Source: a virus. From it: a stretch of 47,241 bases of DNA. Shown in pieces: positions 6,591 through 30,052 of the stretch (position 1 is its first letter; each line of letters starts with the position of its first letter). A program made the position numbers and the translations under genes. The stretch is from positions 1-47,241 of IMG/VR virus record IMGVR_UViG_3300020020_000055. One strand, given 5' to 3'. The notes under the pieces were generated by a model. That model had not been told where the DNA came from, made no database searches, and saw only the letters and a program-made list of their open reading frames with translations.

Positions 6591-6928
6591 GACACGCCCC
6601 GTGCGCCCTTGAGCGACGCGTTCAATAGCTCGTCAATCAACTTGGCGTTGCGCGCTCGGCGTGCCGCTCGGGCGAGCTCGCGGGCGGCGTCACGTTTGGT
6701 CGCGTACTTGAGCGCGTACGCGCCTAACGTAAGCGGCAACGCGATCGCGAGGATCGGTACCTCGTCAACCTCGGCGTAACTTTTTATTAGCATCGAGATG
6801 GCTGTAAACACGTGCCCGCGGCCGCCGCCCGATTCGCGTGCGGCGTTGGTCGCGGCGAGGGCAATGCGCTGGGCAATCGTCGAGTCGTCTAGTTTGTGAT
6901 TGGGAGTCGTGTCAGTCGGCTGTGTCAT
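6587..6928 (-). CDS. Helical hypothetical protein
   Basis: A 113-aa protein, unrecognised, with a hydrophobic helical centre (VPILAIALPLTLGAYALKYA) followed by an Arg/Ala-rich amphipathic helix. The hydrophobic stretch is short of a clear membrane anchor. It could be a distant member of the small helical family found at 7939-8817, but the alignment by eye is weak. Confidence 0.65.
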   Translation of the reverse strand: MTQPTDTTPNHKLDDSTIAQRIALAATNAARESGGGRGHVFTAISMLIKSYAEVDEVPILAIALPLTLGAYALKYATKRDAARELARAARRARNAKLIDELLNASLKGARGVS

Positions 6929-10353: not shown

Positions 10354-10799
10354 TTGTTAGCTACCTCGTTTAGCCATTGTCGATAACCAAGCGCGGGTTT
10401 GCCCTTGCGGTCGAATGCGATCACATGCCGCGACCAATGCAACAACGCCTCGCCGAGTATCGCGCGCGGGTCGACGGCGTCGCGGTCGTGTATGGCGAGC
10501 GCGTCGAGGTCGCCCGCGGCGAATCGCTCGACCTCGTCGGCGAGTAGCAAGGCGTTGTCGACGAGGTCGAGCGATACAACGATCGTGTTATTGACCTCGA
10601 CAAGCCACCCACGCACGGCGGCTAGCTCGCCGCGGCGGGTGCGGGCACTTTCACCCAACACCGCCGACCGCACCGTTACCCGGCCGATCTGCATTCCGGG
10701 TAGGTAACGCGGGTCGGTGCGACCTTCCCAACGCTCGACCGCGACGAGGTCGCAACCGTACGGCGGGTACATCGCCTCGCCGTTATCGCCGCTTGGCAT
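10350..10799 (-). CDS. Hypothetical protein
   Basis: A 149-aa soluble mixed alpha/beta protein. I start it at ATG 10797-10799, because a Shine-Dalgarno (GGGAG) lies 5-6 nt upstream. It then overlaps the preceding gene by 17 nt. Features include VNNTIVVSLDLVDNALLLAD and a C-terminal helix. No family recognised. Confidence 0.65.
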   Translation of the reverse strand: MPSGDNGEAMYPPYGCDLVAVERWEGRTDPRYLPGMQIGRVTVRSAVLGESARTRRGELAAVRGWLVEVNNTIVVSLDLVDNALLLADEVERFAAGDLDALAIHDRDAVDPRAILGEALLHWSRHVIAFDRKGKPALGYRQWLNEVANK

Positions 10800-10989: not shown

Positions 10990-11055
10990 CCGCACCCCTG
11001 CCAACTCAACTGACACGGCCGCCAAAATCGCCCGCGGCCGGGTTGGTGTCAAGCG

Positions 11056-11067
11056 TGTTATATAACA
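11056..11067. promoter_or_regulatory. Palindrome TGTTATATAACA, candidate operator
   Basis: A perfect 12-bp AT-rich palindrome in the gap between two small minus-strand genes. Its inner 10 bp, GTTATATAAC, recur at 16877-16886 in the divergent control region. It may bind the same phage regulator. Confidence 0.4.
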
Positions 11068-11079
11068 TACGCGCGCAAT

Positions 11080-11385
11080 TCATTCGCTAGCCTCGTCGTC
11101 GCCCTCGACGACGACCGCGGGCGTCGTGTCTGTACGCTGTATACGTACCTTGCGTACCCGTGATCCGGGCGCGCGCAGTGCGCGTTGTTTGGCTATCTCA
11201 ATATCGCGGTACGCGGCCACAACCGAACCGTCGTCGGCAATGACCAAAAACACTACGGGCGGCACGCGCTCCAACAATGTGACCGCGCGTCTGACTATCT
11301 CGACGACCGCGATCACAACCTCGGGCGGGTTTGACATGCGCCGCCCGACCAGTTCCATAATGGCTAATATTTGTTCTGCATTCAT
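11080..11385 (-). CDS. Hypothetical protein
   Basis: A 101-aa protein: an N-terminal helix pair (MNAEQILAIMELVGRRM), then beta strands (PPVVFLVIADDGSVVAAYRD) and a basic stretch, ending with acidic residues. I start at M 11383-11385, 5 nt after the upstream stop; the in-frame ATG at 11430 would overlap the HTH gene by 40 nt. Function unknown. Confidence 0.6.
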   Translation of the reverse strand: MNAEQILAIMELVGRRMSNPPEVVIAVVEIVRRAVTLLERVPPVVFLVIADDGSVVAAYRDIEIAKQRALRAPGSRVRKVRIQRTDTTPAVVVEGDDEASE

Positions 11386-12904: not shown

Positions 12905-13207
12905 GTGGGGCGTTTTTGGCGTTTTGGACTAACTGGACTAACTCGGCCGCTTTTTGGACTGCCTATTTATTTAGTCTTTTCATATAGATACATAATAAGT
13001 AGTCCAGTTAGTCCAGTTAGTCCGTTCAAAACTAGAGCCACATGCACGCATGCACATGCACGTGTGCACGCACGCACCTGCACATGTGTGACCCCCTGTT
13101 TTGGGTTGGCTAACTGGACTAACTGGACTAGCAACCTAGAAACCCTTTCATTCCGACGACTTGCAGATCGAATCTGCTAGTCCAATCAAGTTTCAGACTG
13201 GACTAAC
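12905..13207. other. Iteron-bearing origin candidate (303-bp gap)
   Basis: A non-coding stretch between the primase-helicase and the 185-aa gene. Six exact copies of GGACTAACT occur: 12926-12934, 12935-12943, 13116-13124 and 13200-13208 on plus, 13006-13014 and 13015-13023 on minus, with partial copies at 12956, 13001, 13125 and 13178. The paired copies at 12926 and 13006 form an 18-bp inverted repeat whose loop (12961-13000) is very AT-rich for this genome. From 13039 to 13077 the sequence is strictly alternating pyrimidine-purine. Iterons, an AT-rich unwinding element and an adjacent primase-helicase fit a replication origin. Confidence 0.75.
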
Positions 13208-25977: not shown

Positions 25978-26010
25978 CCGCCCGCAACACGGCGTTGGTG
26001 TTGCGGGCGG
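25978..26010 (-). terminator. Hairpin after the integrase gene
   Basis: A perfect 13-bp stem, CCGCCCGCAACAC (25978-25990) with GTGTTGCGGGCGG (25998-26010), loop 7 nt, about 120 bp downstream of the integrase stop. On the minus strand it is followed by TGTTGTTTCG, a weak T-tract. It probably ends integrase transcription before the five small genes. Confidence 0.72.
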
Positions 26011-27711: not shown

Positions 27712-28143
27712 ATGTCACTTGACGACACGAAACGTACCGCGGCGCTAAACATGTATTACGACGGGTACTCGGCGGCGACCGTTGCCAAAGAGCTGAAACT
27801 CAGTGACTCGTCGGTCGAGCGCTGGGTACGAGCCCGACGCGCCCAAGGTAACGAGCCCGAGCGCGGCGAGCTCAAGCGTGCGAGCCGCGGCACATGGACG
27901 GGCGCCAAGCCCAGCGCCAAAACCAAACCCAAACCCCTAGCGAAAGAAGTGCGATCGATCGTGGCCAAACCCAAAGGCAAACCCGGGCCCAAGCCCAAAC
28001 CCAAACCCGTCGACGTGGCCGCGCGGGTCGGTCGAGTCGAGCTCGCGGGCACGTCGGTCGAGCAACTCCAACGTGAAAACCGCGTGCTGCGAATCGAGCG
28101 CGATGCGTTGCGCGCGGCGTTTGACGCGATCGGCGGGTTATAA
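27712..28143 (+). CDS. HTH protein with Lys-Pro linker and coiled coil (candidate regulator or directionality factor)
   Basis: A 143-aa protein with three parts: a helix-turn-helix like those of IS3-type orfA (MYYDGYSAATVAKELKLSDS, then VERWVRARR), a basic linker of Lys-Pro repeats (KPGPKPKPKP) that should grip DNA, and a C-terminal coiled coil (VEQLQRENRVLRIERDALRA). GGAGGG at 27699-27704 sets the start at ATG 27712. Divergent from integrase, it may control integrase expression or direct excision. No transposase catalytic domain follows. Confidence 0.72.
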   Translation: MSLDDTKRTAALNMYYDGYSAATVAKELKLSDSSVERWVRARRAQGNEPERGELKRASRGTWTGAKPSAKTKPKPLAKEVRSIVAKPKGKPGPKPKPKPVDVAARVGRVELAGTSVEQLQRENRVLRIERDALRAAFDAIGGL

Positions 28144-28150
28144 GCGCGTC

Positions 28151-28636
28151 ATGCTAACCCCTGAAATACACCACGTAGATAAGTCGTCTTGGCCGCCCGG
28201 GCCATGGCACGACGAGGGCGCCGACCGCGAGGATTGGGTGCACCTCGGATACCCGTGTTTCGTGCGTCGACACGACGAGCACGGCAATTGGTGCGGGTAC
28301 GTCGCGGTCGCGCATGGTCACCCGTATTACGGATTTCATTACGAGTCGCCCGAGGTTCAATCGATCCTAGTGCACCGAGGTATGACGTACTCGGCCGCGT
28401 GCTCGGGTCACATTTGCCACGTGCCGCAACCGGGCGAGCCCGACGACGTATGGTGGTTTGGGTTTGATTGCGGTCACGGTGCGGTCGATATGTTGCCGGG
28501 TATGGTCGCTATGTTGAGCGTGCTAGGTCGCGACGTCGGCTCGCTGTTTCGCGGCACGCGGTACCGCACCAAGGTGTATGCGATTGGTCAATGCAAGCTC
28601 GTCGCCGAGCAACTAGCGCGGTTGGTGCAGCCGTGA
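28151..28636 (+). CDS. Conserved phage hypothetical protein
   Basis: A 161-aa protein with the pattern PPGPWHDEGADREDWVHLGY, PCFVRRH, CGYVAVAHGHPYYG and then HVPQPGEPDDVWWFGFDCGH. I recognise this arrangement from many temperate phages, where it is annotated as a hypothetical protein. Conserved His, Cys and Trp suggest a compact metal-binding or enzymatic fold. ATG 28151 lies 8 nt after the preceding stop. Confidence 0.7.
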   Translation: MLTPEIHHVDKSSWPPGPWHDEGADREDWVHLGYPCFVRRHDEHGNWCGYVAVAHGHPYYGFHYESPEVQSILVHRGMTYSAACSGHICHVPQPGEPDDVWWFGFDCGHGAVDMLPGMVAMLSVLGRDVGSLFRGTRYRTKVYAIGQCKLVAEQLARLVQP

Positions 28637-28929
28637 GTACGACCGCCGAGCTATCCGAGGGCGCTTTGTACTACCGCGACCTCGGCGACGAGGATGGCCG
28701 CGCGATCTCGGTGTGGGCCATGACGTTTGGCAAGGCACGCGTGTGCATTGGCCCTAACGACTTCCCTACATACGACGGCGGTTGGTGTTACGAGGATCCG
28801 CGATTGGCGATTGCGAGCGCCCATGCGTGGGATGGGAACGGCGACCCGCCCGACGGTTGGCATCGCGACGTCATGCGCGGTCGCCGACGACCCAACGGCG
28901 ACCCAAAACTTGAACACGTGCGTTGGTGA
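28633..28929 (+). CDS. Hypothetical protein
   Basis: A 98-aa protein, beta-rich in the first half (ALYYRDLGDEDGRAISVWAM) and loop-rich after (YDGGWCYEDP). GTG start overlapping the preceding stop as GTGA, so it forms an operon with the two genes before it. Function unknown. Confidence 0.65.
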   Translation: MSTTAELSEGALYYRDLGDEDGRAISVWAMTFGKARVCIGPNDFPTYDGGWCYEDPRLAIASAHAWDGNGDPPDGWHRDVMRGRRRPNGDPKLEHVRW

Positions 28930-28944
28930 GACTAACTTAGGTAA

Positions 28945-29028
28945 CCCGGTTGGTCGGGCTCGGCGCCGAGCGCATGCTGCAACGGTCGTGCGTTGCAAGC
29001 GCGTGACGCATGCCGCCGACCAACCGGG
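28945..29028. other. Branched inverted-repeat element (84 nt)
   Basis: Lies between convergent operons. A perfect 13-bp outer stem, CCCGGTTGGTCGG (28945-28957) with CCGACCAACCGGG (29016-29028), encloses two inner hairpins. One is the palindrome GCTCGGCGCCGAGC (28958-28971). The other has GCATGC (28972-28977) pairing with GCATGC (29008-29013) and TGCAACG (28978-28984) pairing with CGTTGCA (28991-28997), leaving a 6-nt loop and a 10-nt bulge. The fold is a three-way junction. No T-tract follows on either strand, so it is not a classical terminator. It may be a roadblock, a structured RNA or a DNA recognition site. Confidence 0.7.
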
Positions 29029-29043
29029 CCCCACCCAAGCGAC

Positions 29044-29277
29044 TTACGCGGCGCCGACCAGCGCAAAACGCGTTTGACGCAAGTCGTAATGGTCTCGGGT
29101 TATGGCGATTTTATGGTCGGCGCGTAACCAACCCAACGCGAGCCAAATAAAATCTGGGTCGACGTCGAGCGCGTCGACTACGTCGTAACCCGTAGCGCCC
29201 TCGGGCCGAGTACCGAGGTACGTTAGGATTTGGGCAAGTATCGGTTCCATGTCATGGGTGGTCGCGGGCGTGGTCAT
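29044..29277 (-). CDS. Small winged-helix-like protein, last gene of the late operon
   Basis: A 77-aa protein (ILAQILTYLGTRPEGATGYD, then ALDVDPDFIWLALGWLRADH, then KIAITRDHYDL) with the pattern of a small winged helix. The ATG shares one base with the endolysin stop (TAATG). Whether it binds DNA is unknown. Confidence 0.62.
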   Translation of the reverse strand: MTTPATTHDMEPILAQILTYLGTRPEGATGYDVVDALDVDPDFIWLALGWLRADHKIAITRDHYDLRQTRFALVGAA

Positions 29278-29855
29278 TAGACCGATCTAACAGCCGTAAT
29301 AAATTCCGCAATAGGGAAACCCGGGCCCGGATCCGTATGAGTCGATTCGCGCCAAGCCGCCGACACATCGCGGTGCATCGTAATCCCGCGCGGTACGCCC
29401 GCGTTCAAGGCGACCGCGTCGAGGTACGTCGTCGGGATCCTAAACTCGACGCACAACTCGGCGACCAACCGCGCCGCGATCCCGAGCGTGCGAGCCGACA
29501 CGTCGTCGAGCCACTGGTCGCGAGTTTGCGACGCGCGGCCGCAAATCTCGACGCCGATGCCTATCAAGTTAGCCGTGTGTCCAGCATGCCAAGCGGTCAA
29601 CATATACGGCACGCATAGCGTGACCGAGTCGCCGTCGACGACCGCGTGAAACGAGGTTCGCTTACCCGCGGGCTTGGGTTTGGCAATGCCGGCCGCGACG
29701 TTGTCGTCGGTCGCGCCATCGCCCTCGCCGCCCTCGGTCGAGTGCAACACGATTAGCGTAGGGTTGCGACGCATACGCGAGTAATTGACCGGATCGGCCC
29801 AACGTATACGGGTCGTGTACTTGGGTGGTACTAGGACTACGGGCGCGGCCGTCAT
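29277..29855 (-). CDS. Endolysin, N-acetylmuramoyl-L-alanine amidase (amidase_2 type)
   Basis: A 192-aa peptidoglycan amidase. Zinc-ligand candidates are H38 in LIVLHSTEGG, a His in GITMHRDVSA and the His in STHTDPGPGF near the C-terminus. FHAVVDGDSVTLCVP and GIGVEICGRA are typical of the fold. No separate cell-wall binding domain and no signal peptide, so a holin should release it. ATG 29853-29855 overlaps the membrane-protein stop as ATGA. Confidence 0.9.
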   Translation of the reverse strand: MTAAPVVLVPPKYTTRIRWADPVNYSRMRRNPTLIVLHSTEGGEGDGATDDNVAAGIAKPKPAGKRTSFHAVVDGDSVTLCVPYMLTAWHAGHTANLIGIGVEICGRASQTRDQWLDDVSARTLGIAARLVAELCVEFRIPTTYLDAVALNAGVPRGITMHRDVSAAWRESTHTDPGPGFPIAEFITAVRSV

Positions 29856-30052
29856 TGATTCCAACCTCCATACACCATAATAAACAACCCAATAGATACC
29901 AAAGCGACCACGCTCAAAAGCCCCACTAGTAAGACGGCGGCGATCCAATTGAGCTGACGCTCCAACCGCGCGCACCATCTAAATATGTGTTCGATTGCGC
30001 TTTCGATATTCTCGACGCGCCGAGGCGTAACAGGTCGAGGGAATGGCGGCAT
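29852..30052 (-). CDS. Holin candidate (XhlA-like single-pass membrane protein)
   Basis: A 66-aa protein: an amphipathic helix (RRVENIESAIEHIFRWCARL) followed by one transmembrane segment (LNWIAAVLLVGLLSVVALVS and on to residue 60). This layout resembles XhlA-type holin partners. It is coupled to the endolysin. Its start codon lies in the 3' arm of an 11-bp hairpin, so translation may be held back until late in infection. Confidence 0.72.
   Translation of the reverse strand: MPPFPRPVTPRRVENIESAIEHIFRWCARLERQLNWIAAVLLVGLLSVVALVSIGLFIMVYGGWNQ

Follow-up and report, generated by a model that had tools for sequence, protein, structure and literature searches.

A U-poor, branched hairpin between converging phage genes as a probable bidirectional transcript end

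The converging genes and the hairpin between them

The stretch of DNA analysed here (the window) is the complete IMG/VR virus record IMGVR_UViG_3300020020_000055, which comprises 47,241 bases with 61% GC. It encodes a terminase, a portal, a head protein, a tail sheath, a tape measure, a baseplate, an endolysin and a tyrosine-type integrase, a gene set that suggests a contractile-tailed, myovirus-like and temperate phage. The packaging, head, tail and lysis genes form a late operon on the minus strand, and these genes run on past the record end toward the terminase side; since alignment to a close relative brings both window ends together there, the map behaves as circular. The operon ends with the endolysin gene (29277–29978, minus strand; Amidase_2), which precedes a gene for a 77-aa protein as the last one (29044–29277, minus strand). 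On the plus strand, a gene for a 187-aa protein of the family phrog_2164, whose function is unknown (28073–28636), lies upstream of a gene for a 98-aa protein (28633–28929), and the stop codons of the 98-aa and 77-aa genes bound a convergent gap of 114 nt. The integrase gene, which encodes a Phage_integrase-type recombinase, is found 1.3 kb from the element in this gap, while no replication initiator was recognized among the scanned neighbour genes.

Most of the gap is occupied by a hairpin element of 84 nt (28945–29028), identified by direct reading and by folding, which is separated by 15 nt from the stop codon of the 98-aa gene on one side and from that of the 77-aa gene on the other. The two outer arms of 13 nt, CCCGGTTGGTCGG (28945–28957) and CCGACCAACCGGG (29016–29028), are perfect complements of each other. 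Inside them lie the perfect 14-nt palindrome GCTCGGCGCCGAGC (28958–28971) and a second inner arm (28972–29013), in which a 6-bp helix (GCATGC/GCATGC, 28972–28977/29008–29013) encloses a 7-bp helix (TGCAACG/CGTTGCA, 28978–28984/28991–28997), both being part of the minimum free energy (MFE) structure with DNA parameters only. A preliminary description had placed all of these stems correctly, and had recognized a strong structured element where two converging gene groups meet, which indeed lies between opposed stop codons. The outer 13 bp form a perfect palindrome that does not carry on into the interior; the latter comprises 58 structured nucleotides and is not the short loop of a simple hairpin. 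In the minus-strand RNA, the hairpin is longer (28935–29040), such that seven to nine further pairs, mainly CUUGGGU with ACCUAAG together with flanking G-U pairs, prolong the outer stem below a small bulge. The plus-strand tail CCCCACCC contains no T among eight nucleotides, whereas the minus-strand tail has three of eight after the outer stem (TTACCTAA) and three to four of eight after the extended stem. The lack of a T-tract, as first described, therefore holds for the plus strand but only in part for the minus strand, where a weak tract is present.

Stability and branching of the fold

Both the repeats and the fold of the element exceed chance expectation on both strands. When the gap was shuffled with preservation of its dinucleotides, a perfect inverted repeat of 13 bp was reached in three of 5000 shuffles, and the MFE of the element was matched in none of 1000 on either strand, so that the comparison with shuffled sequence suggested in the preliminary description came out in its favour. 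The z-score of the fold is -4.1 on the plus strand and -4.8 on the minus strand, with equal stability in none of 200 shuffles. A composite motif, consisting of outer arms of at least 12 bp that enclose a 12-nt palindrome plus another hairpin, occurs 0.01 times per shuffled 47-kb genome (200 shuffles), the motif having been defined post hoc, after the element had been seen. Relative to GC content, several stretches of the window have better folds, e.g. those at 10501 and 12921, and the element is thus strong, not singular.

Two of the structured regions elsewhere in the window may be described briefly. A perfect inverted repeat of 17 bp with a 19-nt spacer is located at 10523–10575, and the 104-nt segment at this repeat has the best plus-strand fold of the record for its GC content. 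The AT-rich region 12925–13130 contains a cluster of direct and inverted TAGTCCAGTTAGTCC repeats as well as the window's longest perfect inverted repeats, which measure 21, 18 and 16 bp, and is a possible operator or replication-origin region.

The predicted branching of the element depends on the energy model. The three-way junction is the MFE structure of either strand (-33.2 and -32.4 kcal/mol) when DNA parameters are used. For the gap, the MFE is -65.8 kcal/mol on the minus strand and -59.1 kcal/mol on the plus strand. Under RNA parameters, the outer stem has pairing probabilities of 0.92–1.0, apart from 0.6 for the innermost minus-strand pair. The 6-bp helix, by contrast, has a probability of at most 0.01, and the palindrome hairpin one of about 0.5 on the plus strand and 0 on the minus strand. 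On the plus strand the 7-bp helix is formed about half of the time and the favoured branching differs from the proposed three-way junction, while on the minus strand an unbranched rod is favoured. The three-way junction that had been proposed is thus retained as a possible, predicted structure of the DNA, but not as the favoured fold of the RNA.

As DNA, a cruciform or single-strand fold might act in replication, packaging or recombination, i.e. as an origin, an attachment site or a hairpin end, in line with the likeness to terminal and origin elements that had been noted earlier. Such a role would agree with the junction being the MFE structure on both strands with DNA parameters and with the nearby integrase gene, but the integrase is of the Phage_integrase type, the scanned neighbours include no replication initiator, and nothing recognized nearby points to an origin or a telomere. 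Protelomerase (hairpin telomere) sites are one long, nearly perfect palindrome, which the element as a whole is not. A phage attachment site (attP) next to the integrase gene would have its core in common with an attB of the host. Furthermore, the element is absent from the syntenic relative and is not at a genome end, the comparison with this relative suggesting two circular maps that were opened at different places. A function at the DNA level is therefore considered very improbable.

Alternatively, a stable, structured small RNA of about 84–104 nt with a function of its own could be processed from either transcript. The strong fold on both strands would suit such an RNA, but its inner part has competing folds, and a sigma-70-type promoter match adjacent to the element was not found. 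The Rfam search gave no match at gathering scores in the whole window, which leaves the earlier likeness to structured RNAs without a family. Five matches below threshold fall into the gap, among them asX4, which at E 0.00057 scores 19.9 bits where the gathering score is 100, and the riboswitch c-di-GMP-II-GCG (16.4 against 47.9); while they lend the small RNA some colour, both were rejected as assignments, their scores being far too low. When 52 sources (683 kb), with overlapping copies and some short loci left out, were searched with a covariance model, only the element itself was recovered, on both strands, and the next best match was at E 0.062. This likewise argues against a small RNA, an explanation that is regarded as unlikely. 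Beyond the fold and the integrase gene at 1.3 kb, there is no positive evidence for an origin, a telomere, an attachment site or a small RNA.

The syntenic relative and the search for homologues

One close relative, IMGVR_UViG_3300046680_000167 (L006, the same as G001; 47,432 bases), is syntenic with the window over the genome, with 68–77% DNA identity in aligned blocks and protein identities of 86% for the sheath and 89% for the terminase. Its homologue of the 98-aa gene (L006 7817–8116) shows 57–59% identity. At the syntenic junction, directly after the endolysin gene, the relative carries what appears from its sequence to be a textbook U-tract terminator, CCCGCTAACAC-ACTTAG-GTGTTAGCGGG-TTTTGTTTT (L006, about 6717–6762). 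Its genomic position at the end of the late operon is the same as that of the element, but it is a simple stem-loop followed by TTTTGTTTT and does not match the element, of which neither homology nor covariance searches found a counterpart in this relative. Downstream of the terminator the relative has an HTH-like gene and a tRNA-Tyr, both additional to what is present in the window. The tRNA-Tyr (L006 7174–7257, minus strand) has the unusual anticodon ATA and lies in a stretch that differs between the two phages; derivation of the element from a tRNA remnant was rejected, given that this tRNA-Tyr(ata) has no meaningful match in the window. For comparison, a hairpin following the integrase gene (25978–26010, minus strand), with a 13-bp stem and, in the direction of the integrase, a T-rich tail, is kept in the relative (L048 9804–9837), with one compensatory change from C-G to G-C as judged by eye. 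Since this hairpin is kept and the element is absent, structure has been preserved in homologous sequence, and the junction of the element is a site at which sequence was exchanged.

A DNA search with the 2.5-kb region found no homologue among phages and plasmids. With the 116-nt element and E-values up to 10, matches were obtained in 10 phage and 44 plasmid records; no match extended over 80% of the query, and the best E-value among the matches listed was 1. The pattern of the arms had no match in viral_contigs with 12+12 bases and a single one with 10+10 bases (L075), which spans 93 nt with a different interior, has a covariance score of E 2.8 and was taken as chance. Protein searches of the same collection returned one locus for the endolysin, namely the close relative, and two for the 98-aa protein, one being the close relative and the other (L043) not syntenic, while no relative of the 77-aa protein was found (0 loci); there were 33 loci for the 187-aa protein and 16 for the tail sheath. 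In two record sets an endolysin match was present in 2 of 19 and 2 of 11 records. In genome_contigs neither the endolysin nor the terminase had a match, and no host genome or prophage was found there.

A survey of 68 converging gaps relied on a crude gene caller that overlooked the junction of the window itself, and on inspection at least two strong matches (L016, L019) sit between same-strand genes; the counts of the survey were therefore set aside. The L016 hairpin (11038–11118) is branched and U-poor with a z-score of -5.05, and lies between TerB-like and probable endolysin genes, both named by eye. In another related phage record, the 25-nt hairpin ACGGCCGCCACAAAATGGCGGCCGT occurs four times together with a near-copy (L073 3298–5293), each with a T-rich tail, and these hairpins look like repeated terminators.

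Ending of the converging transcripts

Whether U-poor hairpins terminate transcription at all is disputed: going by their titles, the work of Czyz in 2014 is said to find the U-tract required, and that of Ahmad in 2020 reportedly finds it dispensable. For the GC-rich Streptomyces clavuligerus, a Term-seq study gives 353 ends that are highly structured and U-poor, compared with 182 U-rich ones, and 55 bidirectional ends, which have stronger and longer stems and less read-through (PMC8269248). According to a review, mycobacteria have U-less “I-shaped” terminators no more than 50 bp from a stop codon (PMC12288462), and in B. cereus, conservation is higher for terminators common to converging genes than for those acting one way (PMC5381666). 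Strong hairpins poor in U have thus been described as a class of transcript ends for GC-rich bacteria, and by analogy the missing U-tract would not exclude a terminator at the phage junction. The step taken in the preliminary description, from branching and the lack of a T-tract to the absence of a terminator, accordingly does not hold; the element sits where a terminator is needed, and the same junction of the relative has an apparently canonical one.

Compared with a canonical terminator, the element has a stable, GC-rich stem of 13 bp at a distance of 15 nt from either stop codon, but lacks the U-tract after the stem (none of eight on the plus strand, three to four of eight on the minus strand) and has the 58-nt structured interior in place of a simple, short-looped hairpin, so that with its loop and branching it hardly resembles a compact terminator. 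It resembles the I-shaped terminators in its strong GC-rich stem at most 50 nt from a stop codon and without poly-U, clearly on the plus strand and as a borderline case on the minus strand, whose tail would pass the U-rich rule (“three or more”) of the Term-seq study; it differs by its large structured interior (PMC8269248; PMC12288462). The function of the I-shaped class is a matter of dispute in its own right. With the Bi-TEPs of S. clavuligerus and the overlapping terminators of B. cereus, it shares a single hairpin between converging genes that folds on both strands and whose stem is strong, long and near the two stop codons. Those hairpins have a short loop, whereas the element has its large interior, and the greater conservation of shared terminators in B. 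cereus is not seen for the element, which is absent from its nearest relative (PMC8269248; PMC5381666). Our literature search found no paper on bidirectional terminators of phage late operons.

Hairpins with good T-tails are present elsewhere in the phage (6239–6269, 42327–42359 and 45515–45545), which indicates that its host RNA polymerase probably uses them and makes a U-poor hairpin at the end of the late operon odd. In a terminator scan of 25–33 kb, no minus-strand T-tailed hairpin was found between the end of the late operon at 29044 and 28009–27978, the latter being a weak, repeat-rich site.

The element is probably a bidirectional, U-poor transcript-end element, i.e. a terminator or 3′-end barrier, since it takes up the gap between the converging genes, can fold on either strand, is 15 nt away from both stop codons, and occupies a junction that has a terminator in the relative. 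The longer stem on the minus strand supports this, being on the side of the long operon. We infer that transcription stops at the element, and likewise the route by which it does so. The minus-strand late operon and the plus-strand pair of 187-aa and 98-aa genes would converge on the element, and the 13-bp outer stem would fold behind the polymerase in each direction, with the seven to nine extra pairs in the late-operon RNA. In the first of two conceivable routes, the hairpin would act as a U-poor terminator by release or pausing, aided by head-on collision. In the second, the stem would be a barrier to which 3′ exonucleases trim back transcripts that Rho has released further on.

Taken by itself, the second route would mean protection of mRNA 3′ ends with no termination at the hairpin at all; being part of the preferred explanation, it is not a fully separate one. 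It is named in the Term-seq study as an alternative source of U-poor structured ends (PMC8269248), and agrees with the U-poor element and with a C-rich stretch upstream in the minus transcript, where C/G reaches 1.93 in 78 nt, against a genome 95th percentile of 1.53, a composition that seems compatible with Rho. The Rho signals are diffuse, however, and on the plus strand C/G lies below that percentile among the values listed, so that protection alone is a possible but clearly less favoured explanation. That the branched hairpin with its 58-nt interior stands in for a U-tract terminator and forms a roadblock in both directions at the end of the late operon, the branching itself stopping polymerase or exonuclease, seems unlikely; if branching were what blocks either of them, the terminator architecture would be unusual.

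Most likely, the bidirectional transcript-end element has an ordinary function, and its architecture, both branched and U-poor, is mildly unusual. Whether strong hairpins without a U-tract are terminators in GC-rich bacteria is an argued question, and the two phages, with the same gene order but a textbook terminator in one and a branched, U-poor hairpin in the other at one junction, form a natural test pair. Beyond the question of the U-tract, the element would be an ordinary part of phage gene organization.
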